Assembly (NCBI GenBank): GCA_013115135.1
Contig: JABANP010000099.1
Coordinates: 62,001-126,000, forward strand
Direction of reading: 5' to 3'
From: Perkinsus olseni
Lineage: Eukaryota > Perkinsozoa > Perkinsida > Perkinsidae
DNA length: 64,000 nt
The position numbers were made by a program, and so were the translations under genes. Of the stretch, positions 28,036-63,936 are shown one piece after another. The notes under the pieces are model-generated. The model ran no database searches. It was not told the origin of the DNA and saw nothing but the letters and a program-made list of their open reading frames with translations. Position 1 is the first letter of the stretch. Every line of letters starts with the position of its first letter.

Positions 28036-28069
28036 GCGAGTATCTTAGGTTGACCCGTGCTAGATACAG

Positions 28070-31000
28070 ATTGTGTTGACTCTGCGGCCGGTACTGATCT
28101 CTCAGAATCACCACCGAAGGCAGCCGAAAGCCGAAGCGCCGCGCCATCTTTACTGCCACCCCCACCGTCATTGCCATCGCTCAGAGCCCAGCAGGAAGCG
28201 GTAAGCGCTTTTTCTGATGAGATAATAAGAAAATATCCGTACCACTCTTCTGTTAGGTCGGCCCTCGAGTTCCGTTCATTACTGAGGGCGAGTCAGCTGC
28301 AGCAGCCAAGCGCGGTAAGAAGAGGAAAAGCTTTTACTGCGATATTTCTTTCCATCAGAATCACCCTCGTCAGGCAGTCCAGCTGGGTCTGGCGGGATGG
28401 AGGCTGCGGTGAGTCGCTCGTGGCCGCCGATCGCGTCACTATCTGTGCCGGGCTTGGTGATGTGCAGGCGGTCGGCCGATCTGTCAGTCCTTCGGCTGGG
28501 GAGGGAAGGCCTACTGGAGTGAAGGCAGGTAAGGGTATCTTTGGTTGACCCGTGCTTGATACAGAACGGCTGCACTGATATTAAACTTTCGATGCTCTCG
28601 GCAGATACATCATCATCGTCATCATCGTCAAGCAGCCCCATCAGTGCATCATCATCACCAGTCGCCAGGCCGAGTGAGGGATCCGAGGAGGACGGCCCTC
28701 GGCGGAGTGCCTCGTCGTCGATGCTCTCCTTTACTTCGTCCGACGACGACAGCAGCAGCAGCAGTGATGTTGTGGAGTCTCCGGTAAGGTGGGTATCTTT
28801 GATTCTGTTTGAGACCAGCTTCGACCTTGGCAGCGCTCTTGTGTGATGTTAGTAGAGCATGAGTGAAGCCAGAGTTCAGTGAATTTCTCACACTCGCGTC
28901 CTCGAGCCTTAAGGCCGCTACGCAGACCCTTCACGAAAATAAGTTATACCAACTTTTGCCGAATTCACGAGTTCTCTCTTCCATTTTCCGCGAAGTAAAC
29001 TGCCAATCTTCATTCGTAGGGATGAGTGCTTTGGCATTCCTCAGAGGTCAGACGGGCGAAAATTCACCACTGCTCGACTGTCCTACTCGCGTCATTAACT
29101 GCTCGCTCGGTCAATAAACAAGTTTATTAGATCATGGAAATAATTTCCGCGCGAAAAATCAGCAGTTTTGTAACCACTTCTGCTGGATTTCCCTCTGATT
29201 TTGACAGCCATCTATCCAAAGACGTGCGTGTGCTTTCCGCTGCTTGTGGCATCAGCTCACGAGAGCCGACTTTAAAATTTCGAGCGCTCCAATTTCCACC
29301 CCTGCCGTAGTCGCCTCAGGTGCGAAGGCCGCTGAAACGGCGGTGCGGTGGGAAGAGAGTTCGGATAGCATCACCAGCAGCAGAAGGTATCCAAGGTCGA
29401 CCCTTGCGTTTCACGAACGATCTCCTTCTCAGAGATCCCTCGGCGGCGGCTGTCTCTCGTCGAGCAGGGCGTGACGGTGGAAGCGTTCAACACCGAGCTG
29501 TCGGACATCTTCGGGGTCGAGGTAAGATCGCCGATTGAAGCTTTCCTTATACATCGTGCTGTACATGGTACAATCGCCACGTCTCTCAGCTCAAAGGCCG
29601 CTTCCGGCTGTCACACAAATTTTACACAAAAATGATCTTCCAAAAAACTCTTCGGTCGCCAGCGGCTGCTTAGTATGAAGTCCTGAGCCTTCCCTTCAGA
29701 ACTTTGCTTGGGTATAATCGCCACGTCTCTCTGCAATAAGGGCCCCTTCCGGCTGTCATCACGCCAATAATACACAATAGTCGTCTTTAAAAACTCTTCC
29801 AGTGGCCAGCTCAGGTGAAGCCGCCACGGTCGGGGAGATACCTTCGGTGGTTCGACAAGAGGGCGGGGGAGACGGCGGAGCCGAGCAGGGAGGAGATGAA
29901 GCAGGTGTGGTACGGTCTTCCGATTTTCGCAAAAAAATGATAAATTTATTTTCGCCTGAAAAAAATTTTTGAAAAAAAGTGGTATAGTGCCACACTGTGT
30001 CGAAAAAAGGAAATAAATATTTTTTCAAAAAATATTTATTTTCTTTTTTCGCCTTGTTTTTTCCTATGGTGATGGTCGATTTGGAAGCGACACTTCCTCC
30101 GGGCTAGACTAGGGCTCCTGGCACGTGTGGTTTCGTGCGCATCACCACGGCGGGTTCGCCCAGCACTGAATCAAACTGCCAAAGAGACTGCGCGCTCGCC
30201 CCGAAAGGTTTCATTTTTTCGATTTTTTTGTGCCTAGCCTGCCTCACGGTCGGATACCGGTACCATCCATTCTGTATTTGAAACGCTTAAAGATGATTTC
30301 AGCGTTAATGGCTTTGAATTCTGGGCTCTCGCTGGTGTCAAAAATTGCAGCACCAGGTGGTCTGCTTCTGATCGTCTCTTGTGAATCGATGCAAAAAAAT
30401 TTTGATAATTTTTGGGCTCATGAGCCCGAACTTTTGAAGCCGACCACTCAAACCTAAGCGATAAATGCGACTTCAAAATCACCCACACGTCGCTGGAACA
30501 CCCTCTACCCTTCCACCCTCCTCGATGTTGCTCCCCTCAGGCGCAGATGCCGCTCCATCGGAAGGTCTTCTTCCTGATGGAGCAGCAATCCTCCGCCAAG
30601 GACCTCCCGGATGCTCCCGGCCGAGCTCCTCGCCGGCACCTTCGGCAAGGCGAAGCTGGCGAGCCTGGAGGTGACCATCGTCCGCCTTCCCCCTTCCCTC
30701 ACGTCTGTTGGCAGGAGGATGCCGTTGTGGCGTGGGTGGCTACCCAGGACCCGGCCCGGATGACCCACCGCATCTGTGCGGCAGCGGTGGTCGGGTGTAA
30801 CGGGCGGTGTCCTGGGGCGGCCCCGCCACCTTCGTCATCCGCCTCTTCGCCACCGCCAAGGAGGTGTCGTTCGGCCGGCGGAAGGTGAGGGTGATTTGGG
30901 AAAGGTGTGGTACGTGAGGAATCCCTACGTACTAAGGATCTTATCCTTACTAGAGATATTCTGGGTATTTGATTTTCTGCCAAATCGATCACCGTCGAAT

Positions 31001-32477
31001 CTTCCGATATTTCGCAGCGTATAGGATACAGTCTGTCCCACTAAAAATTTTCGCGTTGGGAAATTTTCGCTAGGTGGCACAGGAAGAGTTTACGAATCAA
31101 ACTCAGCGTTCCAGTATAGCCTTAACAATCTCCTTGCAGCCATCGTCTATCGGAATATCGTTACTATTTTAACGTCGCCCTGTGCAACGTTCTTGCGCAA
31201 ATTTTTTATCCAAAGCGGAAATTTTTACTAAAAATTTGCGCGTTGGATGAAAAATTTGAAAATTTTTTGGTATCGGCAGATGTCATTTATTGTAGCGCAG
31301 CTTTGATTCTGCATCGCGGTCAACGACAATAACTGCGATTCCAGATCTTCGTCGATTTCTACACGTTGATTCAGCGTGTAAAAATCGATCGCGTGATCGA
31401 TTTGAAATGTCCTCCTCCTCAGGCGAAGGTGCGCGGGTACGGCTGGGGCAAGTTGCTGTTGCAGGAGATCGAGCACCATCTGGTGGCCCCCCGCAACAGC
31501 CCCCACCTCCTCGTCGAGAGCGTCGCCGATGCCTGGCGGTGAGTCGCTCTTAGACTGGCTGATCGAGAACACAACCCTCGGGTTGGGGCGGCATTCATTG
31601 TAAAACAGAAGTCACCGCCAAGCGAACGCGTCGGACTTCAAAATGACACGCGCAAACCAGAGCTTCGTCCGCTGGAAGCCAATCTTTGGCCTTTTGTCTT
31701 TGGATCATCGTCAAGATCTAGCTCGGCTCTTCATCGCAGCTAGACAGGGCCCGCGATATAAAGAAAGATTCAATCGTTAGCATAACCGTGGTCTGAGTAT
31801 CCGAAGACCTGTGATAAGATGGGAACCTGACACCCTAGTTTTGCCAACTGGAAGCCAATCCTGGAGCAAGATACGCCGAGCGATATACCCATTGGGGTTT
31901 CCCCGTGATACCCGAAATTGTTCTAGTCTTTACATCGTCCGTGAAAAACACCCAAAATGTGTTTTTCGCGGTCTTCGCCTGCGGCTCAAACTTCATCACT
32001 GACACTGTCATCTTGTTAGTACATGAATATCTTTTCCAGCCGTGAAATGCATGCTTCAACCTAGGATACTACCTACTAAAAAAATACTCCCAAAGAAATT
32101 ATTACAACCTGTCGTCTTACGATAAACGCCCTTAAGCTACATGAATATCTTTTTCTACCCGTGGAATGCATGCTTCAACCTAGGATACTACCCTCCTGAA
32201 AAAAAGATACTCCCAAAGAGATCATGACATACCTGTCGTCGTGTACGATAAACGCCCTTAAGCTACATGAATATCTTTTCCTCCCGTGGAATGCATGCAT
32301 CAACCTAGGATACTAGCGACATATACACCCTTCCCCATCAGGTACTGGTCCAAGCTAGGCTTCGAGCTCCGAAGCTCTCGAGGGGCGGCGTCGAGCGGCT
32401 CTGACGGGCAGCAGCTGAGTCGTTACAATGAGACTCTCATCGGTGTGAAGCCGGTCCGGTCGTTCCGCCGGCCATAA
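28070..32477 (+). CDS. Ser-rich protein with C-terminal GNAT acetyltransferase domain
   Basis: Exons: 28070-28200, 28257-28314, 28359-28408, 28468-28528, 28605-28783, 29320-29386, 29433-29521, 29815-29904, 30541-30670, 30715-30884, 31423-31538, 32342-32477; the first exon is probably not the start. Phases agree except in two exons: 30541-30670 has one base too many (near 30610) and 30715-30884 one too few (near 30810). The N-terminus is Ser/Pro/Glu-rich and disordered, with a basic patch KRRCGGKR. The middle contains RYLRWFDKRAG. The C-terminus has GNAT features: EDAVVAWVATQDP and RICAAAVVGC strands, FVIRLFAT, the acetyl-CoA loop VRGYGWGKLLLQEIEHHL, and AWRYWSKLGFEL spanning the last intron. 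An acetyl-CoA-dependent N-acetyltransferase is likely; the substrate is unknown. Four of its introns contain mobile-element sequence. Confidence 0.7.
28529..28604 (+). repeat. Intron carrying a 28-bp A-type element
   Basis: The 76-nt intron (gtaagg...ggcag) holds the short element at 28535-28562, which begins GTATCTTTGGTTGA and ends GATAC. A near-identical 28-bp copy sits at 28040-28067 just before the upstream exon, ending in the 3' splice site cag. Same family as 51302-51329. Confidence 0.85.
29387..29432 (+). repeat. 46-nt intron whose 5' splice site is the A-element start
   Basis: The intron begins directly with the element: AG then GTATCCAAGGTCGACCC, and ends ccttctcag. Both exon phases (1 to 1) agree with removal of exactly this stretch. 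Here the first GT of the element serves as the donor. Confidence 0.85.
32021..32313 (-). repeat. Tandem array of three A-type elements inside the last GNAT intron
   Basis: Three minus-oriented 43-bp-type copies at 32027-32069, 32145-32188 and 32271-32313 are separated by about 75 bp of shared spacer (taaacgcccttaagctacat). This gives a direct repeat of about 120 bp. Read on the minus strand each begins GTATCCTAGGTTGA and ends near AAGATAT. They lie in the 803-nt intron 31539-32341, antisense to the gene. Confidence 0.9.
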
Positions 32478-35998: not shown

Positions 35999-36683
35999 CG
36001 GAAATTTTTTAGTCACTTTTATTTTTTGGTTAAATTTTTGACCAGCGTTGTGAAAAGTGAGAATGTTTTGCGGTTGACTGATTGGGAGCTGGGGATCTTT
36101 TGGTAGTGATTATTTTGGTACCATAAAATTCCCAACTCATCAGAAAACCGTAAGAGACTATCGGCTGCGTTATCAGCGTATCTTAGGTTGATGCGTGGTT
36201 TTTACAAATTTCGGTGCTTTTCAAGCTATTGAGGATTGGCGGGGTTGAATGAGACGGAGTTCGTCAATTTCCTGATGTCAGTGCAATATTCAATATTTGA
36301 TATTAGTACCACATCTCCGCCAAATCTATGGATTGAATAAGAGCTGCCATCCGTGAGTAAATGTATTCGCGGCAGCTGCGCCATCAACGGAGCTTGCGGG
36401 ACTTCTGTCTTTAATTCGGCGGCGTCACGTGGCTTCTCTTTCCAGGGTGCACCATACGGATGAGGGAAGCAGCAGTTAAGAGACTCGCAGTTGCCTCAAT
36501 TTCCCGTCGGAAAGGCGGAAGCGAAAATTTTGCATTTGTTCTGTGCGCCCTGTCGAACTCCTTTTCCCTCGGCGGCGGTTGCTTGTCGTACTTGTGGCTG
36601 ATTGATTGACGAGTTGGTGAAGTCGCTGAGATGCAGCAGAATTTTGAGAAGGGACGCACTGCAGTGATGGGCATTGTTGTGTT

Positions 36684-36752
36684 CTAGTGGTTGAGCGCGT
36701 CGCTTTCATTCGGAAGGTCGTGGGTTCTATTCCCAGAATAGGGTATATCAGC
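36684..36752 (+). other. tRNA-like sequence upstream of UPF3
   Basis: An A-box-like TTCTAGTGGTTGAGCGCG and a B-box-like GGGTTCTATTCCC are spaced as in a tRNA (with a four-base-pair T stem), but acceptor and anticodon stems do not close properly. Most likely a decayed tRNA or SINE head rather than a working tRNA gene. Confidence 0.4.
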
Positions 36753-36772
36753 TCCTTGTTTTCGCTATAGCG

Positions 36773-39700
36773 ATGTACCGGCCGAAGGGAAGGGTGATGT
36801 TGTCGACAGTGACCGGACCGAGGCAGGAGGTGGTGGAGGAAGGAAAGCCGGACAAGCAACCGGAGAGGGTTGCTGAGGCGAAGAATGAGAAGGGGTTACC
36901 AACGGATAAGGGAGGGGATGCTCGAGGGAAGGGCAAAGGGAAGAAGGGCGCTGAGGTAGTAATGGCGGGAACAGTTTCTCACGGAAGGACCGCTAGTTAG
37001 TTTGAGAGGGTTGCGTTTAACTAGTGAAGGATCGAAAATTTTCAAATTTTCTTTGCAAAATTTTTGATAAATTCTCGAAAATTTTTCTAAAATTTAAGAT
37101 GCTCTACTCCCTGGCTTCGTGCTGCTGCTACATCGTATTTGTGGTTCGGAGGAATCTCCTTTTTGGTATTATTCTGACCCGAGTGATTTTATTTTCTCAT
37201 ACCCAATTTTTGACTAGAAAGTGCATTTGTGAGGGATTCTGACGAAAAAAAATGGATTCGGAAGGGGAACTCTGCCCGAGTGCTCTTGCCAGGGTCGTAA
37301 GGAGGAGTCCACCCCGCCGACGCCCGGCAAGGGGAAAGGCGGCGGTCGGGCAGGGAAGGGCAAAGGGAAGGGACGGTTGGGTGGTGATGATGATGATGAG
37401 GAGAATTCCAAAGCGAGGAAGGGAAAAGGGTGAGGGGGTTGTTGCTGCGAAATTGGAGGACCTTATTGGCATTTGGCGGTTTTGGGTAATTTTTGTGACC
37501 GCCGGTGATACGAGACGCGCCTTATGGGTTTGTGAGATAGTGCTTCGTGTATTAGATGACCATTTAGGAATATACTCTGTTACTTGGTCTTCGTAGCGAA
37601 AAGCGGGGCTCGGCACTAATGCTCGGGTTCGAACCCCAGCCCGGGCTTTTTTCCGCATTTTTTCGGCTGCATCTACTCCGCGACAGTGCTGGTCGGTAGA
37701 ACGGAGTTGGAAGCGATTTCGTATTTTTTATAGAATTCTCCCGCCGCGAGGTTTCGAGGTGGGGAGAAATAATTTGGGCGAACGAATGCACAAAAGTGAC
37801 AGTTCCTGCTGCGCTGGCTCCGCAACTAGTGGTTACAGGACGATAGAGATGTCTTCGCGTGATGGTATCACGGTGATACTGTTGAGGATGATAGTGATGA
37901 TACTTCGCTCCGTTCGATGCCTCACATTTCGCCTCGCCTTGACCGTTTCGTTTATCTTTGTAACGGTCTGTCCCCAAAGATTCGGTAGTGATGCTAAGTA
38001 TATCGTGTTAATGTGTATAACGCTATCTCACTACTGATGCAGGTTTGTATTGGTTATTATTATTATTATCCTTAACGAAGTTCCTCGGGCTTCATTCTTC
38101 GGGAAACATGGTCCTCGCGAACTTGGGCACTTTGGTCGATCATAAATTCGGCGTGTGTTTCCTCTATCAAAGGTTCTTTTTCAGTGGCGGCGAAGGTGGT
38201 AAGTCGAAGAGCAGCACTCCTGAGAAGGGGAAGGAAATAGACGAGAAAGGCCCGCCGGGGAGCTCGTAAGTCGCGAGGGGTGGAGACGGAGCGAGTTTTG
38301 TGATGTGATTCAGGAGAAAAGTGGTAGTAAGGCTGCTTCCACCGACCATCACTGAAGAACAGCTGTGGAAGTCCATACCGGAAACGGTTAAGGAGAGCGT
38401 GGTGTGGAGGTAGTGGACGGGGAAGGGGCCTTCGGTCCTTGCCGAATGGTCTGGAGGTGATTGCAGATTGGGCTCGGAGTGAAGGAGAGTTGAGAACTGG
38501 AGGCTAACGGGGGTTGGTGAGAATAAATTTCTGCTATTTAAACGGTGCAAAATTTTATTTTTTCCGGGAAATTTCTGAGAATTTTTTTCTGAATTTTCTG
38601 TGCGCCAGAGACATGGTGAAATCGACCATCCTGTATGCTTAACAGCTTCGAGAGTTCTGCCTGGACCCTCAATTAAATTCTCTCTCGACAGTCTTCCTGA
38701 AATCTGAGGGGGGTCGCGCTCTGTTGAGGATTGCAGAAGGCGTCGAGATTCGAGTTTCGTCTGCGGAATGAGGGATAAATTCCGCACTTCTCGTCACGGC
38801 CCTCCCCTCATAACGGGTACAACTCTATCGGGTATCAGATATTTCGTGCCGGGCGTGCAGCCGAAGCGACCTTCGATTACCTCTCCGGCGGTGAATAGTC
38901 GTTGTTACCTCGAGTTTGACTCGAAGCAGAGGGCGGCGGATTTCGTTAATTCTTTCCACGGCCATAAGTTTGTAGATCGTGTAAGGTGGTCGCCTGCTTT
39001 CGGAAGGGGTTGATCGATTGCTCGGTAGTTGGGAGAGACCTATCGGGCGGTGGTTTGTGCGTCGCCGTGGGGCAGGTGTATGCCTGGAGGAAGCGGTCGA
39101 AGGCCTAGGCATAGCAGAGACGTTAAGGAAGGGTCTATTGATAAGTGCAAGTAGGAGAGTTGCTGACTGGGAGGGGGGCGCAGGTTCGATCCCTGCCTCA
39201 GGTATTTTAAGGATTTTATTGCTTCTATTGCCGAGGAGGCCCCGGCAGCGTTGCCAGAACCATTGGAAGGTGATCTTGGGCTTTCAGGGGGATGGAAATT
39301 TCTTGGTTGAAAATTTATTTTCCATTTTTTATGGAAAATCGTGACCGCGTGTAGCTCGCAGGAAACGGGTGGGGGAATCTTAGGTTGAAGCTGGATAGAT
39401 TCAAAAAAGCCTCAGTTACGTGCGACCCTGCGAAGACTCCGCTGGTTGATTACATTAATGATTGGTATAAAGAAAAGGAGAAGCGACGAGAGAAAGAACG
39501 TCGGCGACAAAGGGAGGCGGCGGAAGAGGCTCGGAAGAAGAAAAAACATGCTGCAAAGTAAAAACGACAAGTTGGCTGTCATTCAGTCAGGGGAAACGGT
39601 TTCAGGGAGACTAAGAAGGCTGGTGAGAAGAAGGGAGCGGTAGAACCGCAGGAGGGCAAGAAAAAGTCCAATCGAAGTGGACGAAGCAGCAAAGATGACG

Positions 39701-39900: not shown

Positions 39901-40239
39901 CTGATGTGTAGTTCATTGAAGCTAGCCCGAAGGACTTGTTACGAGTTAAAGTCGTAGGCTTAACACGAGCTTAAGTAACGATAAGAAGAACTTTAATCCT
40001 GAGAGAATCGTTGTGCTGGGCCAACCCTAACAACTCACTCAGGGGCACTTTGTGGCGTTGATGGCGATTGGTCTCTTTTCAGGCGGCTGTAGGTTAGATC
40101 GGTAGAGGGCGAAGAGCTGCTGGCGAGCCGCTGTTGCTGTTTGGAACGCTCGAAACGTGATTATAATATTTTCCTTGAAAAATATATTTTCGTTTTTGCG
40201 TTGAGAAGTTAGTGAAAGATTCGTATCCAAGGTTGAAGC

Positions 40240-41939
40240 ATGCACGCGACGAAGGTGATAGATTCCCATGCCCATCCGCAGATGGGCAAGTTGACGAGTG
40301 TCGCCGCGAGGGCGGAGCTGGTCCGAAGGTGTTCGGAAGTTGGAGTTAAGATGGTGGTTGCGTGCAGTACAGGGCCCGAGGACTGGGACGATGTAAGTCT
40401 GTTCGGGAGATGAAAAAATTTTCGGAAATTTCCCCATTCTTCCGTATTTTAGCTCGAAAAATGGAAATTTGTCAAATTTTTTTGGAAAATTCCGGTTTTC
40501 CCCAGATTTTTCCCGAAAATTCAAGAAATTTACCGGGAAATTTCAGTTTTTTTCGAACATTTTGGGGAGTTTTTTGGAAAATATTGGGTGCTTCGCTCCG
40601 CTATTGGTGTATTGCTCAGACCGCTGGACTGGATCCTTCACTTTATAAGCCGCAAGTGGGTATCCATCCATGGTATGTAACCGAGGAGATGGCCGAGGTC
40701 GAAGCTGGCACTTCATGGGTGCAAAAGATGCGCCAGCTGCTAGAAGCGAATCCGAGTTTCGGCGTGGGTGAAATTGGAATTGATAAAATTAGGGCGAAGG
40801 AGGTGGTGCTGGTGGAGGGGCAAATCGATCGAGTGATCGATTTGGCAGGTTCCGATGGAAATTCAGATGAAGGTTTTTAAAAGGCAGCTGGAGTTGGCGG
40901 CCGAGTTTGGAAGGCCGGTATCTTTGCACTGCGTGCGTGCCTATGGTCAACTTCTGGATTCTCTCAAGGAGGTCGACGAGCGGATACCGGCGATTGTGTT
41001 ACACGCGTAAGGAAGGGCGGTGTCCATACCACATTTCCAGCAAATCTCAGCTGTATCCCAGCGAGATGGGTATCTTTCGTGTATCTTCTTGCTTAGAACT
41101 CAACGGGTTCCGTTGGAATTTAACTCGACGTCGAAAAAATCTTCCCTTGAAATAAGTGGCTTCCTCCGCAACGAGACGACGGGTAAATCTCGATCGACAG
41201 GTACGGCGGAAGCGCCGAGCTCGTGAAGGACTTCCTCAGATGCACTCAAGAACGTAGGTCATCGGCGTTCAGTGTCCGACTAGCGATGGCCTTGGGCTTG
41301 GAACTGATGAAATTCGCGAGGATGTTGTTGTTGATTCAGGGGTGTATTTTAGCGTCTCGGCGAGGAGCCCTAGTCCGGAAGCATCTGGCGGGAGTTCTTA
41401 AAGCCGTGCCGAGGGATCGACTTTTGATAGAAACTGACAGTCCCGACCAGATGCCGCTAGACGTGGAGAGGGCGAAATTAGGTACGTCTCAGAAGCCCGC
41501 GGCGACAATTTTTTTCCGGAAAAATTTGAAAAATTTCCTTTGGTCCTTCGCTTTGTCAAAGACCAGAAATGATCTTCTAGTAGTGAATTCCCTAGGACGG
41601 CGTGCTACCGCGGGTTTGCAACGCTCTCTGTAGTCTGGGTTTATAGTCCAACTAAGCCCGGTAGTATCGGCTTAGTTGTACTTTCCCGGAGTGCTCATTT
41701 CCTGGAGGGGCGTCGTGCACACATTGACAGGAAGGGATTATCAAAAGGCTTCCCTCGGGGTCCGCTGTCACGTCCGCTATTCTTGTTCAGAGCCCGTCGG
41801 TGAAGGCATCAACGACAGCGGACTGATCGACGTCGTTTTGAAGAGGGTGGCCGAAGCGCTCGGACAGGACTGTGACGAAGTGGCTGCTTTTACCAGCGAA
41901 AACGCGGAGAGAGTTTTTGGTGTTTTATCGCCCCCCTGA
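40240..41939 (+). CDS. TatD-family metal-dependent deoxyribonuclease
   Basis: Exons: 40240-40392, 40620-40802, 40849-41006, 41201-41253, 41340-41481, 41791-41939. TatD motifs occur in the right order: VIDSHAH (first metal ligands), VGIHPWY, VGEIGID (catalytic Glu/Asp), RQLELAAEFGRPVSLHCV, HAYGGSAE, RVYFSVSA and RLLIETDSPDQM, with the usual C-terminal TSENAERVFG. TatD enzymes are TIM-barrel nucleases acting in DNA repair and apoptosis-like DNA degradation. Exon 41340-41481 contains one base too many: the frame reading YFSVSA must shift by +1 to reach VRKHLAGVLKAVPRDRLLIE. This is a sequencing error, a real frameshift or decay. Intron 40803-40848 contains a 24-bp palindrome and intron 41482-41790 a B-type element. 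The start codon lies in an A-type-like sequence (40223 onward). Confidence 0.85.
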
Positions 41940-47364: not shown

Positions 47365-48279
47365 CTTTCTCGGACTTTTCTCGCGACAGAAAAAACGCAA
47401 TTTCACTGGGGATGTCCTCACCAGCATTTTCCACTACTTTTTCGAAGGCCCGATCAGTTCTTTCACTAATCAAGCATCTCTTTTCGTACTAATTACTATT
47501 TTTCAGAAATTCGCAGAAGATGCTCCCCGAGATTTTCAACCGTGACATCAAAAAAATTGAAAAAAAAATGAAAAAAAAATTTTGCATCGCGATTCTTGCT
47601 TCGTAAAAAAAGGTATTTTACGTATTACGGGAGGAACTCCTTAGCGTGAAACGGCGGAGGCGGGAAAATGAAAATACGTCAATTTGTTATCGAAGTGCAT
47701 ACCATAAAAAACGCAACTTCCAGCGACGAGAATGATGGTCGAAAATTATCGTCCATGCAGAGATACGCGACCGAAAAATTGGGTGGCCATTATTACCGTA
47801 AATTTGGAATTTACGTAAATTTGTGGAACCATTTAAAAAATTTTCGAACTTGTAGAAATTTTGCGATAAGACGTCGAAAAAATTCGGGAAAAACTTGGAA
47901 ATTTTTATATTTTAGAAAATACACGCACTGAGGTGAGCGCTGCATACCACTCGCCCGATCACCGTACTACCGTTCCTCCCGGGATAAGTATCTTAGGTCG
48001 ACCCATGCTGTTGACAAGTAGCAGAAGAACATAATAATAACGGTTTTGTTATTACTCACTATGTTAACTCGAGACTGAATATAAAATTTGAAACGGCTCG
48101 GAGAGGATCATTGCAGAACAGCTTCGCGCCTCTCTTGGTGGGCGATTCAGCTCGACCTTCTTGACAACTGACTGTCTGCAACAGAATGATGATAAACGTG
48201 CATGAAATTGGCTCTTGGACTGTGCAAGTGAGCCGATCGTTATAACATCCCCTATGAGACGAATCTGAGTGCAATCTGA
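47365..48279. other. AT-rich intergenic stretch
   Basis: No gene supported. Contains an A-type element copy at 47988-48015 (GTATCTTAGGTCGACCC). Confidence 0.45.
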
Positions 48280-49396: not shown

Positions 49397-49401
49397 GCAA
49401 G

Positions 49402-50269: not shown

Positions 50270-51130
50270 ATAGAGGAGCAGGGCATTCCAAAGGATCGTT
50301 TATCATCAACACTCTCTTCATCAACGTCCAAGAATCCGCCGCAATCTCCTCTCCCGATGCCAATCATGCCGCCGCCAGCCTGCTTCACGTCATGTCCGAA
50401 GGCATCAGTTTTCCCATGGTGTTTTCTCTCACTGGAAGTGGTAGTTCAGTAAGGTTGATGATTCCGCAGGAGCCGGAGAAGGCTTCGGAGCGTATATTAA
50501 TAATTAACCATCATTACTAGCATCATTGAAATGATCATGAATAACAGTGACGACGCTTAGTGAAATCGATCAGATTCGTAGCTCACAGGAGCGCGCGCCA
50601 TTCTAATCGATTTGCAGCTCAAGTTGAAGCGTGGTAAAGACGGATGAAAAGATACGGTCCTTGACCCTTTCCCCCTCACAGGTCTCTACGCGTCAACGTC
50701 GCGTGAGGGTGGCCGGGGTTTTCCCGGTACGAAGTAGAGATCGAACCTGCCATACCCATACGTCCCCCTTGCTGGTGACTCGGTATTGGTTGGGCCCTCC
50801 CTTTCTACACAAATTTTCACCATCTAATCATCTGGGTTTCCGCAATCGCAGTTGTTGGTCCCGGGACTACTTAATCCTCTTTTCACCTTCTTTCTCCCTC
50901 ATGCCTAGTAGGCTGCCCAGTGTGGCATGCCTCCGTCCTCGCCTTTCCTGGCTGCACGACGTAGTTGTGACGAAGTTCCTCTCAAGAGCCTCCGAGCTGA
51001 TGATGAAAGATTGATTAACCTCTGTTGTTTTAAGGCTCTATGGTTGGGTCTAACCATATCGGGATCCGCTTGCGCGGGTCGTGTGATGGGCGATAAGCTT
51101 CGAGCTTGTAATGCCCAGGCAATAAAGTTT

Positions 51131-51301: not shown

Positions 51302-51329
51302 GTATCTTTGGGCCGACCGTGCAAGATAC
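51302..51329 (+). repeat. Minimal 28-bp A-type element with perfect 7-bp ends
   Basis: Starts GTATCTT and ends AAGATAC with a 14-bp centre (TGGGCCGACCGTGC). It directly follows an acaggacag acceptor-like sequence. Same length class as the copies at 28040 and 28535. Confidence 0.85.
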
Positions 51330-52641
51330 GAATTAGGTCAAGCTGAGGCATCAGGTGCTATGTGATGCTCGATTGCTGCACAGAATATGTAGCTTCAACT
51401 CTCTTAAGGAGACCTACCGGGTGGGCATGACTTCATCATTATTACTGCGCAACCTCATCGACGACAACGGCGCTTGGGTAGGTATGTCATGGTAGCCTTC
51501 AAGCCCACTGGTGACACTAGGCCACGAAGCGTGTAGTGTCTGCGTACAACAGTCCTTCAAAGGATTTTGGAATATCGTCTTTTTGTCGCCGCTAGCTCCA
51601 ACTGAAGGCTCCAAAATTATCCGAAGGACTGTATGAAGCTTGGCGCTTGGGTAGGTATGTTTTGGATAGCCATCAAGCCTATTGATAAAAAAGTCTGGGG
51701 ACCTTATGTGCGTGCGTGCAACAGCTGTCTATGCTTCAGTCCTCGGAATGAAGTGTCTTTCTCGCCGCTAGCTCCAACTGGAACGAGTTACGAGAAGAGT
51801 GGTATGAGGACTCTTTCGAGTACCCTACTGGATACAAGTTGTATTCAATCGTCCCAGTTGAAGCTGGCGGCGAGAAAAAGACGACATTCCAAAAAATTTT
51901 GGACGACTGTATTAAGAATAGATCATGCTGTACGCATGAAGCTACACCATTTTCCGATCAATAAAACCTTTTTCGCTCAGGTTTAACGATTTTGATACCG
52001 ACTTAGCGAGTGTCATGGGAATCAAAGAATTGCCAAACTTAATTCGCATCGACACCGAATTTTAGTCTACCGAAAAATATTTTTTTGATCGGAAAGCACT
52101 GTAGACAAGACTGTGGCGTAGTGCCCTATGACAGCAATGCTTCGAGTTAGTCGTTTTATCTGATACCACACCAATCGTTTCAGCCCCTGTACCAAGTGGA
52201 CTCCCGAAGGACCCCTTCAGAGCCCCTCAACGTGAACCTGGCCTAGTGCTCTGAGGGTCGTCTCTCCAGTGGCAGGTTGGATGATGACGCTGCTTGAGAG
52301 GCATGCTAGGAAGGGGTGAGTGGGCGACCACTGTTGCGATGGAAAGTCGGTGGGGTGAATTTTGAAGAGAGTTTTGCTAGGTTATTGTGTGTGGTAGGCT
52401 GACGGCCGTGGACTTGTTACGGAATTATTGTGAGGGGTATCCTAGGTTGAACATGGTTCTACGCAGAATGCATGCAATCGACTGGGGAATTTATACAGTC
52501 TGTAATGAGGCCACGGTGCTGCTATGCCTGACTGAATCAGTAGCTGAGAGCTGACTTTTGCCGCTGCTGCTGTGATTTGGCAAACTGGCTTTATTTTTGC
52601 CTGTGACATCATCGTCCATTATTGACCGTGCAGCATTTCAC

Positions 52642-53290
52642 ATGCTGTTGTTTGGTAGGTTCGAAGAGCTCGCTTCGGCGTATCTTATCGAACCCTCTGA
52701 GGAGGTGATGGACCTTCTTCTATTTTATGCTACATCCCTGACCACAATCGCCTACAAGGGTCGATTGTCTCCCTCTTTCCAGTCTCTATTGTCTGCTAAT
52801 GCATCAACCCTAGTGGACCTATCGCTGTCACTGGAAGACCGCTGCCCCGATGGTTTTACATTACCGAAGATGGAGAATCTTTTGACCTTGGACGTCGTGG
52901 ATGGACCTTTCCGAGTTGACTCCGAGCCAGCTTGTTGAAGTACTCGAATCACCGCGTCTGGAGTGTCTGTACTTAGCGGGCGTTGATCTGGTCGAAGATG
53001 AGGGGGTTGGTAGAACCAGGCGGCCGAGGATGAGTTGTGGGCAATTCATAAAAGCAGCTTTGGAGAGCCAGCGACTGATGGAGGTCGTCTTGCAGTGGTC
53101 CGACCCTACCTGTGTAAGACAAGCATCAACCTAAGATTCCATTTTAACTGCAGTTGGATCGACTGGCTGGAGATTCTCCTGCCTGGTTGACGCTGGCGAG
53201 CATGCGAGGGTCGACACTATCTCAATGGAGATGGCTCAGAGTCACCAGCACGGGTGCGCAACGACTGAGTTCCTTCCTACCGGCTACTGT
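52642..53290 (+). CDS. Leucine-rich-repeat protein, fragmentary model
   Basis: The plus frame from ATG 52642 reads MLLFGRFEELASAYLIEP and then LRR-like blocks: STLVDLSLSLEDRCPDGF and MENLLTLDVVDG. A second frame, +1 relative to the first, continues with SELTPSQLVEVLESPRLECL and LYLAGVDLV, up to a donor at 53114. After the 40-nt intron 53114-53153 the exon reads WLTLASMRGSTLSQWRWLRV and ends near 53290. The regular spacing of Leu suggests an LRR solenoid, perhaps an F-box-type receptor. The frame change near 52900 has no intron to explain it. The C-terminus is unresolved; further coding-like blocks lie to 53943. Confidence 0.5.
53114..53153 (-). repeat. 40-nt intron containing an inverted A-type element
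   Basis: The intron gtaagacaagcatcaaccta...ctgcag contains, on the minus strand, GGAATCTTAGGTTGATGC. So the same element supplies introns in antisense orientation too. Confidence 0.8.
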
Positions 53291-57100: not shown

Positions 57101-60100
57101 GAGGAGAGGAAGGAAATCGCGAAGGTATGCGGAGGGGCTGTGGGGTGCTTCGAAAACGCTGCTTGAGTTTTCCGAAAGTGAATTTTGCGATGAAAAATGT
57201 GGAAATTTTTTCATTTTTTTTCGGGTAAAACTGCACTGTGGTCAGGCGGAGAAAAATATTGATAAGAAAGAAGAGAGCATGGTGGAGGTGAGGAAGGAAG
57301 CGAAGCCGTTGAGGATGAGAATCCAGACGATTAATGATACGGTAAAGAGGGGACCTTCTGGCCGTAGTAGGCATGCCCATTGACTCTCAATCGATTGGCC
57401 TGCTCTTGCGGGACCTGTTTGTCTGGTTGAGGCGTTGATAAAGGGGTAATTTGTGACCCGTGTAAGCTACCCATTCCGGAGGAGTATGATTCTGTTTCAA
57501 CTCAAAAAAAGATGAAGTGGGGAGAGGAATTGCTTGATAGTAGCATTTATTGCGGATTTTCATTCTCCCTGTCATTTTTTTCTGTCCCTATTTTCATGTT
57601 GGTTGTTACGAATTTTTGGCAGAGAAATTCCGGGCCTAGGATTCGAACCCGGGACTCCGGGGTGCGCTGGCTATGTCGAGTAAAGGAGGCCCGGCATTTC
57701 GCCTAGTTTATGATTTTTGTGGGCGTCTCTGTGATATTCTTCTTTTTTCAGATTGAGGTTATGAATCAAGGGCTAACGCAGATTAAGGTAAAGCTGTCGA
57801 ATGAGCGGGAGAGGTAGTAGAAGTACTGGAACCGAGAATCGAACTCGGGACCTATCGCGTGTGAGGCGATCGTCATTGCGGAGCGAGCGAAGCGAGCGGA
57901 GCATATACTGTCACTTCTGCGCTTTTTTTGTGCGTTCGTTCGTTGGTTCGTTCAAATTATTTCTCAACGACTATGTCGATTCAACTCGCGAGACGCATAC
58001 CATTCGAAAGCACGTGGTTTGTGTATTCTATAAAAAATACGAAATCGGTCTCATCCCTGTTCCACTAAGCAAAACCGTCGTGGACCGTTGTAGACGAAAC
58101 CGAAAAAATACGGAAAAAAGTCCGTGCTGGGGTTCGAACCTGAAACTCTGTGTCGAGCTCCGCTTTTTTCGTTACGAAGGCCTAGTAACCAACTAGACCA
58201 TTCCAGCGGTGGGTACCAGGGGGTAGCTTTAATCTAGGTACATGGAGGAGGTATCTAGGAAGGTCGGACTGGACATGCAGCTGAGGCAGTGCAAAGACAA
58301 TTTCCTTCACGCTCAAGTGAGACTATGATCGCGTATCCAAGGTCGATGCTGGCTTGTTGCAGAATGAGGCCACTCGGAAGGATAAACAACTCTACAGAGC
58401 GAAGAGGGACACTAAGCAAGCTATGATCAAGCAGGAGAGGGCGGAGGTGGCGTTGAAGGCTGCGGAGGTGATTCTGAGGGGCATTCGAGGGGAGGAAATT
58501 ACTATTTTAGTACAAACTGCTGTGTGTGAGTTTGAGCTACGACAATCCGGCCTAGTTGCTTTTTTGTGGGCCGCAGTTACGAAGGTTAACGTTAGCGATG
58601 CGCTCCGTTGAAGGCTACGGAGGTGATTCTGAGGGGCATTCGAGGGGAGGAAATTACTATTTTAGTACAAACTGCTGTGTGTGAGTTTGAGCTACGACAA
58701 TCCGGCCTAGTTGCTTTTTTGTGGGCCGCAGTTACGAAGGTTAACGTTAGCGATGCGCTCCGTTGAAGGCTACGGAGGTGATTCTGAGGGGCATTCGATG
58801 GGAGGAAATTACTATTTTAGTAGAAACTGCTGTGTGTCGAGTTTGAGCTACGACAATCCGGCCTAGTTGCTTTTTTGTGGGCCGCAGTTACGAAGGTTAA
58901 CGTTAGCGATGCGCTCCGTTGAAGGCTACGGAGGTGATTCTGAGGGGCATAAATTGCTTTTTTGATTGTCGTGTGTGTGAGTTTGAAGTCCAATACCGAC
59001 AACGGCGTAGTTAGGCTACCACTGATGTACTTTTCTGAGGGGGATGGCCCAGCTTGTTTGGGATGTATTTGCATTTCAAACTTTCTATTTTCAGTAGCTT
59101 TTTGTTCACCTATTTTTTGGGAAAAAAGGATTTTCGGTTGTTTTCATCTACTTAGTTTTTTTTTCGAGAAAAAATTTCCGATACTTGTTCTTGAACTAGT
59201 ATTATGGCAAGGAGTGAGATATTGATTTGTGCAACGAATTCGTTCGTTTCAGGACGAAATGGAAGAGGCTGTTGGCGAAGGGGAGAAGATGGCGAGTGAT
59301 GACAAGAAACAAGAATCTTTACTCGAGGAAGTTCAGGCGGAGGTTGACCTCTTCATGGCAGCCTTCATGCGGCAGGAATCCATGGACCATCATAAAAGTG
59401 GCAAATTTTTCGTAGTTGTGGTGGATTTTTTCCTGGGCAGAGATGGACTATGAGGGCCTCCTTGCGAGGCTTGCTGATCAACAGAAGGAGCTGCAGGTAG
59501 TAGTGGAGGATATGCTGTTGGCTGTAGTGAGGCCAACTCTGAAATACAGAAGCGGGGAGCGCATAAGTTTGTGTGTGAAATTCAATCCCGGTGTGGATTT
59601 TGTATTTTACTCGCCTCAACCCAGCCAAAGGCAATGCGCTCTCTGTTTCGAATGGAACGGTCTTATTATATCATTGGACTGCCAGTCTCTGCGGACTGCC
59701 AGATGAAATCGCGGAACTCGAAGGAGACGGCCTCAAGCCAAGCTCTTCACAAAACCAATTCGAGGGACTTGAATACACCAATCCTGAGCTTCCGAACCGA
59801 TCCTTAAAGTGCATCATTTCGGGTGTGATATCCAATTCCGGGATCGATTCGAACGGGGGGTGAGTGCGCTACCATAGCTTGGTTCGACACTGAACAGACT
59901 AAAGGCGTTTCTCTTACAGCTGAAATTGCTCATACCATCACAATCGTAACTCATCTTGCACTCTCCCGGCGGTACTCGTACTGTACCGATGTTTTGACGG
60001 AGGTCTTCCAGGCTTTGGGAAAGGCGGAAGCTTCGGCAAAGCAGAGGGAAAGGTTTTTGATCAGTCAACGTGAAAAGCTGAATCGGGATACAGAGTTGGT

Positions 60101-63100
60101 GAAGAAACTTTGCAAGCAGACCTTGGGCGAGGTATGTATACAATCGATCATCAGGGCGCGCGCTAAATGCATCGCGTGGTAGGTGCAGATGAAAGTAGCG
60201 GAGGAAGCGGACCAGCGGAGGAAATTGGAAAGTTGTGGTATGCGACAAAAGGAGTCCCGATCGGCCTACGAGATAATCAAGAATGAGCGGAATAAGTGCT
60301 ATCTTGCTATCTTGCGCCCACTTGCATTTCCTCAACGCTGAAGGTATCTTAACTTGATCCAGACGGCTTCTCAGAGAGTTAGTGAGATGCAGGAGAAGTA
60401 CCGAATGTTGAATAATGAAGCGGACGTTTTACAAGGGGAAAGTCACGCCAAGGGAAAGGCGGTGGAAAAGGCCAAGACCGAAGCGGCGAAGTGGGGGAAT
60501 TTCGTGGCGCAGTGACGATTTTCGAGATTTCTGCGCTTTTTCGAGATAATGGTTTCGGGAATATTTCTCATAGTGATGGGAATGTTGCCATTTGTTATAG
60601 ATTTTTGCCGAAACTTTTCGGGTTTTCCGGAAATTTTCCGGAATTTTCCCCGTTTTTCCATCAGGCAGAGAAGCATCAGAGATCGACTGTTGAGTGAATA
60701 TAATAAGATGAACAACAAGGGTCACGAACTTAACGATGAGGTTGGGAAAAATTCCCGAAAATTTCCGGAAATTTCTTTCTCGGACAGGTCGAGCGAAATG
60801 TTTCGGATATTGACAAGTTGAACTATATGATAAACAACCAGGAGAGGAAGCTGGAGGATATCGGCGAGAAGTAGTGACGGGTGCGGTGGAGGGTCCAAAA
60901 ATCAGGCGGAGCGAAGGTCGTTTTGTCTCTTATAAAAGCGCCCCTTCCGAAGTCGGGCCTTGACGCACGTATAAGCTTTGGGGCGTTAGGAATGGTGATC
61001 GATCTCCGAATCAATCGTAACTGTTTTGGCCTGCCATTGGCAGCAGTAGTAAAAGTACCGACGGTGGCTTTGTCGGTGGATCTCCTACTTAGTTTGGAGT
61101 ATGAGTTAGTTGGATCTGTTGCGGCTAGGTTAGTCAATAGGAAACCATTCATTCGTAATCACGATTTTGAGGGCGATGGGCTTACGCTTTATAGCTGCTC
61201 GAGCATTGTCTGCTGGAGGGTCTTGGCGGTTAGAAATAGAAAATTCGATTTTTTCCGCCCAAAATTTGTGTGGATTACCGATTTCAAATCGGTTTCTTCG
61301 TAGTTGTGCAATTACAAATCGGCGATTTGTAAGGCGGAAGAAACGCCTTAGAAATGATGGCTTTGGAGTCGGACAGCCAGGGTTAAGGTTGATACCAAAT
61401 TTCGTTGAGCAGGAGTTTTTATGGCCAGGTATGAGGCGACGCTGGAGGACCGGAATTTTGCCGGCGTGGAGCTGATTGATCGAAATGACGAGCTCTGCGT
61501 ATTATGGGAGAAGTTTAATTCTTTGGAAGGGCGGACGGCGAAGGTAGTAGTCGATAGAGTATCTTAGGTTGATGCGTGCATTTTACGGGTGGGAAAGATA
61601 CTCATGTAGGTCTCGGATATGATACGATGAGAGTAATGATGAGTTTTTTTGTAACGGAAAAACCGGAGCTCCACGCAAACTTTCCGGATTCGGGGTCGAT
61701 CGATCATAGTCGCCGAGAAATAATTTGAACGAACCAAGGGAGCGAATAAGGCTCCGCCCGCTTCTGCAATTTCCCTGGAAGTGTATTTTAAGGAGGTAGT
61801 ATCCAAGGTTGATGCTCGTATTTCGCGGGTGGAAAAGATACTCATGTGATTCACGCGGGAGTATCTTTTTTCAGGGGTCGGTGGCGATGTTGAAGCTCTC
61901 GGAAGATATTCGACAGCGGACGTTGGCAGCGGGTCAGCTACGAGGAGAGGTAATGAGGGAAACGAACGCTAGAGGTGTCAGAAAAATTTAAAATGGAATT
62001 TTTTCAGTTGGATATTATCAAGAAGCAGCTCCAAGTCGCATCCACGAATGCTGGAATCGATCGTCAGGGCGAGCGCGCTTTGCAATCGGGTATCGGACTT
62101 GTTGGGGTGGAAAAAATAGCGTATCTTTTAGTTGGGATACACCCGTCCAGTGTCGGGTCGGGGCCGTTGATGGTGGGCGAAGCTGATGGAGCTGTTGTGG
62201 TAGAAAAGATGAAGGTGAGCGTATCTTAGGTTGACCCTAGGATTTCGTAGGTGGGGAAGATACCTTTTGTCAGGAGCAGCTGGCTGCGTTGATTGAGAAG
62301 TCGGCGATGCTGTCGAAAGAGTTGGAGGACCCGAATAGTGTTTTTCGGAAATGGCGAGAACTGGAGGGAAAAGTAATTAGGGAAAATTGGTTTTTTCCTG
62401 AAAATCAGGAAAAGTTTTAGGATTTCTTATCTGCACGGTGGTTGCAAAAAACTTTGTGTGTGAGTTTACAGTCCGACGCACGAAAACGAATTATCTGTTC
62501 AACAGGGGTGGTAGTGGTAACTTTCCTTCGTCGAGAACGACGTGCTCCGGCGGGCTAGCGGCGCTTCCTGTTCAACGGTGGAGTTTCACCCGTGATGTGA
62601 AAAACATTTCACATTTCACATCGCGAAATTCAATTCATTCGACTGGTTAGTTTATAGTCCAACTGAGCCGGTAGTCTCGGCTGTGGTTTTACGCTTCTTT
62701 TCGATGTGTTGCGTATCTTAGGACCTCGACAGGGACATTCTTGCGGCAAAGATACGCCTACTAGAGGAGAGGTTAAATGATAAGAAGGAAACACTGGTGG
62801 AAAAGGTACGAAATTTTCGGGGAAAATTTCATTAATTTTTGCGTGAATTTCTCGATTTCGCGGAGGATTTTGAACTATGTGGTCGAATGAATTTGTTAGG
62901 GTGGAGTTTTTTCCGAAAAAATCGGGGAAAATAGCGGAAATCATCTCCGTAAATTTCGCGATTTTTCGGAGGACGATGTGTTTCAGGGAATTATTGAGGG
63001 AAGGCTTTTTTCGGAAAATTTTGAGGGAAATAACAGAAAATCCGGGGAAATTAGTGACAAATTTTTGGACTGTGGTGGGAGAGACGGGAAATTTTTGATC

Positions 63101-63936
63101 GGGCATTGATGATCGTTGATGGCAGGATATGATTTTGGAGGAATTGGAGCCGCTGTGCAGCAAAGTGGCAGCCCGAGTTGCCGAGGGAAAAGAAGAAAAA
63201 CTGATTCTGATGCAAAAAGTAGAAAATTCTGAGGGGTAATTTCGTGGCGCGTGACGGTGGTGTAGGTGAATTCGCTACAGCAGACTCTGCGGGATTTGAC
63301 GAGGAAGTTGGTTTCGGCGGTTTCCGAGTTGTCGATGTATCAAGCGACAGCGTTGGATGGCGAGGGAGAGAATAGGAAGCTGCAGGCTCTGGTTGACGAA
63401 GCGGTGGAGAGGTTACGAGTTGGCGATGTTGTGGTATGTAATTTGGGAGGGGCTGGTGAGAGTATCTTGAGGTTGGTTATAGGTCGATGTGAGTTGGTGG
63501 ATAGTAAAAAATTCGTTCATAATTTTTGGTGAGGATCTCGTAAGGTAGCGCTGGATGCTGGTTTTTTCGGGCGGAGCGGAGCTCGTCGTTTTGGAGATGT
63601 TAGCGAAAAGCGGACGGTGAAAATTTCTTAGCCGACACGAAATGACAAGAATTGGGGAATTTTTGGTATCCAGTTGGTTGGAGGATGCGTTCAGGTGTAG
63701 TTGATTCAGAGAATCAGGATGGGAGTTAATTATCAGTATCTTAGGTTGACCCTGGGCAAAGATGAGGGAGAAAGATATCATTTTCGGTGTTAGGAGCCTG
63801 TAGTACCCTTCCCTGGTGAATCGGAAGTGCTGCTGCAGCGGGCCAGGAGAGGGGAGGAAATTGAACATGAACACACGCTGGAAAGGCAGAGAAAAAAGAA
63901 GGAAAAAGAGGAAGCGAACGACCCCAATGCTGTTCG
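54165..63936 (+). CDS. CCDC146/MBO2-like axonemal coiled-coil protein (3' end outside window)
   Basis: Start MSSSSPALNERAGTLAFNVL at ATG 54165. Clear exons: 54165-54316, 54633-54727, 55357-55482, 56060-56165, 56474-56556, 56893-56973, 57246-57341, 57752-57813, 58238-58316, 58363-58467, 59253-59397, 59441-59496, 60012-60131, about 60189-60293, about 60378-60492, 60665-60740, 60788-60870, 61429-61543, 61875-61949, from about 62010 to 62214, 62274-62372, 62722-62805, 63126-63218, 63266-63433, 63794-63936. Almost all are in phase; the gaps 54728-55356, 55483-56059 and 56974-57245 are unresolved. The product is heptad-rich throughout. GSLSRDEMEFYKVQYERLH, KELLQEGKDL, VELIDRNDELCVLWEK and LEDPNS...WRELEGKD match the CCDC146/MBO2 pattern as I remember it. 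That family works at centrioles and flagellar axonemes. Its introns are the main home of the repeat families described here. Confidence 0.72.
57630..57694 (-). other. Shortened tRNA-like sequence in a CCDC146 intron
   Basis: On the minus strand a perfect 7-bp acceptor stem (CCGGGCC/GGCCCGG) encloses 51 nt that include GGGTTCGAATCC (B-box) and GCCAGCGCACC. The D-arm and anticodon arm are shrunken, for a total of 65 nt. It looks like a deleted tRNA or SINE head. Confidence 0.5.
57814..58237 (+). repeat. 424-nt intron almost filled by an inverted tRNA-Val/SINE composite
   Basis: Both flanking exons (57752-57813 ending in phase 2, 58238-58316 starting with one base) join in frame. Between the splice ends lie only about 10 bp, the tRNA-Val-like/SINE composite (57824-58207, minus) and about 30 bp. 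Confidence 0.85.
57824..58207 (-). pseudogene. tRNA-Val(CAC)-like sequence split in its D-loop by SINE copy 3
   Basis: On the minus strand 58207-58186 reads GCTGGAATGGTCTAGTTGG plus TTA: acceptor 5' strand, positions 8-9 and the left D-arm. 57875-57824 gives TGAC, then an anticodon arm ATCGC-CTCACAC-GCGAT (perfect 5-bp stem, anticodon CAC = Val), a variable loop, a T-arm CCGAG-TTCGATT-CTCGG (perfect) and TTCCAGT, which pairs with GCTGGAA over 7 bp (one G-T). The D-stem GTC/GAC also closes. Between the halves lies about 310 bp of the same SINE found at 35112 and 37568. The SINE head may itself share this 5' half. Confidence 0.65.
58317..58362 (+). repeat. 46-nt intron with A-type element core
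   Basis: The whole intron is gtgagactatgatc + GTATCCAAGGTCGATGC + tggcttgttgcag, between two in-phase coiled-coil exons. The element's right end (AAGATAC) is missing or replaced by the acceptor region. Confidence 0.8.
58468..58970 (+). repeat. 155-bp tandem repeat that duplicates a splice donor
   Basis: The units start at 58468, 58623, 58778 and 58934 (the last truncated); the first three are almost identical. Each begins with the intron start gtgattctgagg, and units 2-4 are preceded by GTTGAAGGCTACGGAG, a copy of the last 16 bases of the upstream exon (GTTGAAGGCTGCGGAG). So the array has repeatedly copied the exon-intron junction. Each unit also carries a B-type-like GTGAGTTTGAG segment. 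Lies in CCDC146 intron 58468-59252. Confidence 0.92.
61544..61874 (+). repeat. Composite intron: A element, SINE fragment, A element
   Basis: The 331-nt CCDC146 intron contains 43-bp A-type copies at 61559-61601 (GTATCTTAGGTTGATGC...AAAGATAC) and 61799-61841 (GTATCCAAGGTTGATGC...AAAGATAC). A truncated SINE (about 61640-61780, recognisable by gtaacggaaaaa, gccgagaaataatttgaac and gctccgcccgc) lies between them. Both A copies extend into the same CTCATGT. Confidence 0.88.
62215..62273 (+). repeat. 59-nt intron that is essentially one A-type element
   Basis: gtgagc, then the 43-bp element 62221-62263 (GTATCTTAGGTTGACCC...GGGAAGATAC), then cttttgtcag. The flanking exons read ...VVEKMK and EQLAALIEKS in phase 0. 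The cleanest example in the window. Confidence 0.92.
62373..62721 (+). repeat. CCDC146 intron with two B-type elements
   Basis: B-type copies at 62455-62485 (GTGAGTTTACAGTCC) and 62648-62685 (TAGTTTATAGTCCAACTGAG then CCGGTAGTCTCGGC). The intron's last bases, GTATCTTAG, are the start of an A-type sequence that continues into the exon. Confidence 0.8.
63219..63265 (+). repeat. 47-nt intron with C-type motif
   Basis: gtagaaaattctgaggg + TAATTTCGTGGCGCGTGACGG + tggtgtag; the flanking exons join in phase 0. The same motif opens the introns at 60493 and 63937 and occurs in both RNR2-fragment introns. Confidence 0.75.
63736..63779 (+). repeat. A-type element near the 3' end of a CCDC146 intron
   Basis: A 44-bp copy starting GTATCTTAGGTTGACCC and ending AAAGATATC, 14 bp before the acceptor ttag at 63793. 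A partial copy (GTATCTTGAGGTTGG) lies at 63462 in the same intron. Confidence 0.85.

Follow-up and report, generated by a model that had tools for sequence, protein, structure and literature searches.

Where do new introns come from? The question is old, with introners as a leading source of mass intron gain, and it is raised by a 64,000-nucleotide stretch of the Perkinsus olseni genome (assembly GCA_013115135.1, contig JABANP010000099.1, positions 62,001 to 126,000; hereafter the window), in which a very short repeat, the A-type element, recurs along the sequence. Perkinsus is sister to the dinoflagellates and stands near Amoebophrya with its strange introners. The A-type element is read here, with a probability of roughly 0.55, as a non-autonomous, introner-like element of long standing in Perkinsus, which entered genes in either direction and now makes up short spliceosomal introns or parts of them. 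Such a very small family, with ordinary-looking splice sites and acceptors at both ends, would show that a palindromic unit can be spliced either way round.

The family is defined by a 14-nt core, GTATCTTAGGTTGA. A scan of both strands of the window with up to three mismatches yields 26 matches against 4.41 expected, a number reached in none of 100 shuffles. In the whole assembly (61.5 Mb, 968 contigs) the exact core occurs 758 times and its reversed pattern never; with up to two mismatches, the counts are 3,964 for the core and 326 for the control. The genome holds a few thousand A-type copies in total. Based on 68 copies, a weight matrix of 32 positions detects 20 copies in the window at the listing threshold of 13 bits, while three shuffled 200-kb controls give 0–2 matches at each threshold of 12 bits or higher. 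Raising the threshold to 20 bits leaves 17 copies in the 64-kb window and 10 in 200 kb of sequence selected by location, strong copies being about five-fold denser in the window than in the sampled genome. The first-pass annotation had recognized a repeat family of about twenty copies at 23 positions. The family is real, and its list of positions stands in part: 18 reach 13 bits, two (45563 and 60344) lie within two mismatches of the core and score below 13 bits, and three (34994, 35478 and 63462) appear in neither the 14-mer nor the weight-matrix list. Minus-strand copies among them are the three near 32 kb, 45563 (which starts at 45606) and 53123.

The best-conserved part of the element is the stretch of offsets 0–31 and not the two ends alone. 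In 66 copies, information is high at offsets 0–13 and again at 19 and 26–31, is near zero at several offsets between the core and 26–31, and is at background level outside 0–31; these copies were chosen by their left core, which inflates core conservation. The ends of the element are written GTATCTTAGG, and some copies share further sequence beyond the core, ...GATACRRAAYAGGTCRAG, as read by eye. Of the 66 copies (at least 22 bits), 26 have a right arm, AGATA[CT], at a spacing of 28 nt in 11 and of 43–47 nt in 15. The 7-bp inverted ends and the size classes of 28 and 43–44 bp proposed at first thus persist in weaker form. The family does have inverted ends, often lost, and two preferred spacings, as a tendency only; because most copies are without the right arm, the two ‘size classes’ are to be understood as spacings of that arm. 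Compensated ends occur at two copies, 39375 (GAATC...GATTC) and 45606 (GCTTCTT...AGAAGC). The heptamer GTATCTT is about four-fold more frequent in a 264-kb sample than in shuffles (95 versus 19–27), and many of these heptamers lie outside recognized copies, some of them just before acceptor-like sites. BLAST-based repeat discovery returned other families only, not the A-type. Near-identity along the whole intron, the mark of introners, is not seen, several positions inside offsets 0–31 being almost without information. Because only this stretch and not the whole intron is conserved, the element is called introner-like, not a proven introner.

Residence in introns is clearest where the host protein is recognizable. 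Outside the window, element-bearing introns are firm in a CDK12-like kinase, in proteasome alpha-5 and in a MORN protein. The CDK12/13-like kinase of locus L007 (best PDB matches CDK13, E 3.5e-65, and CDK12, E 2.9e-64) has three introns with an A-type copy or its remnant, and after joining its protein aligns gaplessly at each of the junctions. In its intron 3, the inner right end of a sense copy is the acceptor, GTTAG/ATAC, where the slash marks the junction. A one-base frame change near position 1065 of this locus, within the kinase coding run, is perhaps an assembly error. The alpha-5 gene (PSMA5, locus L002) has a 47-nt intron around an antisense copy. Its joined protein is gapless at the junction against alpha-5 chains, and an alpha-5 record of Perkinsus chesapeaki (P0189, a cluster of seven sequences) is identical through the junction (YTKYRAAAIG). 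Among 120 listed relatives, 117 show the motif, with uniform spacing, and at the residue encoded by the TAC of the element end 102 of them have Y and 15 have F; judged from these alignments, both the length and the Tyr at the alpha-5 junction are ancestral. In locus L041, an antisense copy constitutes a 46-nt intron exactly between two MORN repeats (stretch 5–24 in the first exon alone, 25–47 in the joined protein). The MORN periodicity is kept across the join, and TAC encodes residue 1 of the second repeat match, a position usually occupied by Tyr in MORN repeats.

In the PSMA5 and MORN copies the left end, read backwards, is the acceptor, CCTAAG/ATAC. This use of acceptors in both orientations points to a palindromic DNA unit and not to a strand-specific RNA signal. 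The introns of PSMA5, MORN and kinase intron 3 measure 46–47 nt, and their junctions keep protein length. Joins were sought as GT-AG, and GT-AG borders fit every join tried; in these three introns, a cut one base further (TA...GA, non-canonical) gives the same protein. Similar sequences are found less firmly in introns of a RING-type gene and of window genes. The RING-like gene (locus L036; Pfam E 0.0007, just under the cut-off) has a sense copy in a 55-nt intron, whose donor GTAAGTTG agrees with the 5′ end of U1. Tandem arrays of the A-type unit with a 38–40 bp period (17, 8 and 6 units in L029, L030 and L031, at C21:121800, C26:68300 and C10:39400) directly precede exons resembling UbiA/COX10 (Pfam E 7e-7, below the cut-off), RPC1 (above the Pfam cut-off and with a PDB match) and trypsin-like Deg proteins (E 0.001, below the cut-off). 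Residence in introns is very likely for copies in recognizable genes and probable for most others. On this point, the first-pass annotation was borne out wherever the host protein could be recognized (kinase, PSMA5 and MORN).

How might such introns have arisen? On balance an introner-like origin by insertion is favored, and we infer from the sequences that insertion itself may have created introns. A short, nearly palindromic DNA unit would spread into genes in both orientations, and its copies would persist as short introns, or as parts of them, removed by the ordinary spliceosome. Each end could carry an acceptor, the unit in the direction of transcription ending ...AG/ATAC (GTTAG/ATAC for sense and CCTAAG/ATAC for antisense copies). 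The target would be G^TA^C, with a presumed duplication of TA only, leading to the arrangement exon-G-TA-[unit]-TA-C-exon. The donor GT would then be formed by the target G and the T of the first TA, and the acceptor AG would lie one base before the second TA, the exact junction base being provisional. Splicing would restore frame and length and change at most the target G to A; given AAG and GTG as original codons, that change would be silent in PSMA5 and MORN. Because alpha-5 length is unchanged across relatives, the most natural source of the TAC following the junction is the target itself, and an ancestral Tyr at this place would agree with insertion at G^TA^C and duplication of TA. In its complete form, a two-way intron maker in which a palindromic unit of ∼45 bp enters GTAC, duplicates TA and, in whichever direction it is inserted, forms a donor at the target G together with an AG/A acceptor ahead of the second TA is a tentative proposal, with the odds against it. 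If it held, each new copy would be a frame- and length-preserving intron with no more than one mRNA base changed, and thousands of copies inside genes would be tolerable. The mobilizing enzyme could be a putative Tc1/mariner-like transposase, which would fit TA. Stowaway-like and Tc1-mariner miniature inverted-repeat transposable elements (MITEs) have a TA target duplication and short inverted ends, and the presumed TA duplication and short inverted ends of the Perkinsus unit would suit this type. To our knowledge, the Perkinsus unit is shorter than known MITEs.

Donor-like sites (score of at least 5) are found within 30 nt upstream of 29 of the 66 copies, versus 14.6% of control places at the same loci, and they cluster 4–11 nt before the core. 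Independent donors and acceptors outside the element are seen at window copies 28535, 61799 and 62221, in kinase introns 1 and 2 and in L036. Genes for the small nuclear RNAs (snRNAs) U1, U2 and U6 are present in the genome; those of U1 and U2 are adjacent in tandem units of ∼3.4 kb, and those of U6 lie in units of ∼1.9 kb (C41, C871, C270, C16 and C586). GTATCC resembles a minor-class donor. A U12-type or snRNA-pairing motif was nevertheless rejected, as U1, U2 and U6 are ordinary and the whole 14-base core has no contiguous pairing with them (minor-class snRNAs being outside this search); the longest snRNA pairing, 14 pairs to U1 with G-U allowed, falls mostly outside the core. Exclusive sense orientation just after the donor was likewise dropped, the PSMA5 and MORN copies being antisense, and so was strand assignment by codon usage, which favored the wrong strand at verified copies, those of L007 among them.

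Several observations weigh against an origin by insertion. Some concern the structure of the unit. The right arm is missing in 40 of the 66 copies, and in the 66-copy listing six variant left arms stand opposite an unchanged right arm, so that a hairpin kept by covariation, despite two clear compensated pairs, is no more than a possibility. Others concern orientation and splice sites. The mirror test for antisense copies finds donor-like sites at 17 of 66, versus 23.0% in controls, hence no excess, so that support for the antisense class comes from PSMA5, MORN and some weaker cases, and antisense introns are established for these two genes only. Sense copies often have a donor 3–26 nt upstream and an acceptor further downstream, an arrangement not predicted by the simple model. 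At the kinase junction, relatives mostly have L and not Y. A 2-nt TA duplication would be inseparable from a consensus donor GTA followed by the element end, and flanking direct repeats of the 66 copies are no longer than those of permuted flank pairs, with no sign of a longer target duplication.

The remaining objections come from homologous contigs, meaning diverged second copies within the assembly, whether haplotypes or not. The window has its second copy on contig C96 (82–95% identity by piece), the kinase locus on C275 (94%) and C226 (92%), and L041 on C591 (96%); none was found for L008 and L002, and L033 matched short repeats only. All 18 window copies compared keep their site in C96, a set that includes the weak copies 51302, 60344, 28834 and 50614 and leaves 32069, 32188, 32313 and 36178 outside the comparison. 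The three kinase-locus copies are present in both further contigs. One match seen only in C96 (L057:1867) lies in a non-aligning stretch. There is no element-free site among the window and kinase-locus copies compared, and no sign of active mobility in this comparison. The polymorphic introns and flanking duplications anticipated at first were not encountered in the comparisons made, and the introner interpretation retains its other supports: thousands of copies, location in introns and an end used as acceptor in both orientations.

Divergence between homologous contigs is distributed unevenly. The core differs at 3 of 266 sites (1.1%) versus 35 of 627 (5.6%) in the rest of the element; near upstream flanks differ at 16 of 228 (7.0%), far upstream flanks at 82 of 905 (9.1%) and downstream flanks, partly exonic, at 50 of 1,214 (4.1%). 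The choice of copies by their core lowers its apparent divergence, though the 13-bit threshold still tolerates several mismatches. The sum omits the doubtful copies 51302 (three differences in 14 core sites) and 60344 (none in 14) and is also without 52437, 28834 and 50614; copy 52437 had no BLAST match in the divergence run, yet aligned in C96 in the direct comparison. Such slow divergence suggests a function at the level of the host and, as far as comparison of contigs can tell, supports to a moderate degree a continuing role of the core in splicing.

This is what would be expected if the core were a cis-acting signal (branch site, acceptor or splicing-factor site) kept by selection in a non-mobile splicing module, with likeness between copies due to function and local duplication. 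The agreement of copies in core positions and their free variation between these, the gathering of donor-like sites just before the core and the lack of any empty site among the compared copies all favor this explanation. A strand-specific RNA signal is, however, not expected in both orientations, as found in introns of PSMA5 and MORN (antisense) and of the kinase (sense), nor does it account for the likeness of some copies beyond the core. Conservation of the core may also be merely that of a splice site, and core-based choice of copies biases the comparison somewhat. The splicing module is therefore considered unlikely. Less probable again is a small MITE-like repeat inserted chiefly into introns that already existed, where it was harmless, without making any. 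The good independent splice sites outside the element at the window, kinase and L036 copies listed above, as well as the tandem arrays inside introns, agree with it, but three introns, those of PSMA5 and MORN and the third of the kinase, use the element end as acceptor, measure 46–47 nt and keep protein length at their junctions, and a random insert in an old intron would not fall exactly on an acceptor. A chance or low-complexity artifact, to which the five-fold richness of the window, the degeneracy of some earlier positions and the frequency of open joins at random might point, is refuted by the exact-copy, two-mismatch and shuffle controls and has a negligible probability.

An old introner-like insertion, still the preferred reading, has partial parallels. 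Farhat et al. (2021, PMC7789003) describe introners of Amoebophrya A25 and A120 with mostly non-canonical splice sites, inverted repeats of 8–20 nt and direct repeats of 3–5 nt over the boundaries. They give a similar arrangement of inverted repeats for 1% of canonical introns in A25 and 15% in A120, and detected no U1. The Perkinsus element is like them in being a repeated intron of an early-branching dinozoan parasite, with inverted repeats, kept in a minority of its copies, that may join the intron ends. It differs from them in that GT-AG borders fit every join tried, the arms measure ∼7 nt, a possible TA is the only direct repeat seen and U1 is present in the genome. Across eukaryotes, introner families such as those of Micromonas and Aureococcus have median lengths of 30–654 nt, according to the main text of Gozashti et al. 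(2022, PMC9860276), which reports terminal inverted repeats in 72 of 177 families and target site duplications in 49 of 130 families tested, and describes some families in which the element supplies just one splice site and the other is recruited in the target. The 30–50 nt of the Perkinsus unit fall within this range and the logic of recruiting one site matches the present proposal, whereas those families are defined by similarity from intron to intron and the Perkinsus copies agree mainly in core and arms. That main text makes no mention of Perkinsus. A study of Perkinsus gives, in the portion consulted, GT/AG introns of 39–1622 bp and reports no repeat there, and the titles and abstracts listed from the open-access literature report no intronic repeat of Perkinsus; among these listings the A-type family is apparently undescribed.

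In the window itself, all 20 copies of at least 13 bits lie in 28000–64000 and none in 1–28000; as a separate observation, GC skew is mostly positive from 32 kb onward. Open joins occur at six copies (28040, 28535, 39375, 58333, 61799 and 62221) and less surely at 53139; the nine in-phase introns in five genes of the first-pass annotation were not reproduced. As 49% of random joins of matching size leave one or more frames open, in-phase joins in the window are weak, supporting evidence only. Two plus-strand elements with the 28-nt spacing lie in probable introns. The one at 28040..28067 (39.6 bits, GTATC...GATAC), identical over offsets 0–31 in the homologous contig, allows in sense an acceptor like that of kinase intron 3: a probable 36-nt intron (28028..28063, plus strand) ends at its right arm, ...GTGCTAG/ATAC, with open joins in two options of two open frames each, an alternative acceptor 6 nt further being likewise in frame. 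The one at 28535..28562 (36.3 bits) lies in a probable 76-nt intron (28529..28604, plus strand; open join, two open frames), with a donor GTAAGG 6 nt upstream of the element. A plus-strand element with compensated ends GAATC...GATTC, the same in the homologous contig, is found at 39375..39402 (34.0 bits). It may be part of a 30-nt intron (39369..39398, plus strand; open join, two open frames) of a UPF3-like gene, with acceptor GGATAG/ATTC; the joined protein has a weak UPF3 match (E 0.0069, 16.9 bits, under the Pfam cut-off of 24). At 58333..58364 (plus strand, 31.0 bits), the right part of a CCAAG variant provides the acceptor TTGCAG/AA of a 46-nt intron (58317..58362, plus strand; open join, one frame), both sides of which are conserved in the homologous contig.

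On the plus strand, copies with 43-nt spacing are found at 61559..61601 (39.6 bits), 61799..61841 (29.7 bits), 62221..62263 (33.5 bits) and 63736..63778 (32.2 bits). The second lies in a 79-nt intron (61796..61874, plus strand), 3 nt after the donor, and the third in a 59-nt intron (62215..62273, plus strand) with a donor GTGAGC 6 nt upstream of the element, both with an open join in one frame. On the minus strand, three copies ∼120 bp apart occur at 32027..32069 (34.9 bits), 32145..32188 (43–44 nt, 35.7 bits) and 32271..32313 (36.0 bits). Just beyond the window end, at window coordinates ∼64432–64720 (L049 and L050), three further 44-nt copies stand within 300 bp; their spacing differs between the two homologous contigs, and a weaker copy lies just before them. 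Also on the minus strand are the element with compensated ends GCTTCTT...AGAAGC at 45575..45606 (two mismatches in the 14-mer, below 13 bits), conserved in the homologous contig, and that at 53108..53139 (35.3 bits), perhaps antisense to its gene with an acceptor CCTAAG/ATTC, where a 24-nt intron (53112–53135, plus strand) with an open join is tentative.

The other copies are plus-strand unless stated. Elements without a right arm are located at 36178..36209 (38.1 bits), 47988..48019 (34.1 bits) and 29387..29418 (a CCAAG variant, 27.9 bits). A further CCAAG variant is found at 40223..40254 (30.9 bits), at the start of a reading frame labeled TatD-like by eye, and a CCTAG variant at 52437..52468 (33.2 bits), present in the homologous contig. 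Weak copies occur at 28803..28834 (minus strand, 14.2 bits, the same in the homologous contig) and 50614..50645 (18.4 bits, at a site alignable in C96 and there below 13 bits). The 28-bp copy noted earlier at 51302..51329 keeps the 28-nt spacing and has a decayed core (15.4 bits; three of 14 core sites differ in the homologous contig), and that at 60344..60375 is degenerate (two mismatches in the 14-mer, below 13 bits).

Several features besides these copies were seen. A second short repeat, AATTTCGTGGCGC(G), lies close after donor-like sites at window positions 60498, 63238 and 63943, as well as at L014:2840 and in L016; occurring in the same genes as some A-type copies, it may represent a further family of intronic repeats. 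Window positions 58451–58950 contain a 155-bp tandem repeat (3.2 copies, 98%), and the homologous contig does not align there. In L007, L050 and other loci, sequences that by eye resemble tRNA (GGTTCGATCCC and its reverse) are found repeatedly in non-coding DNA and are possibly tRNA-derived repeats. Finally, one reading frame of the window is that of a 3-hydroxyacyl-CoA dehydrogenase, with 99% identity to a Perkinsus olseni protein and 85% to that of P. marinus.

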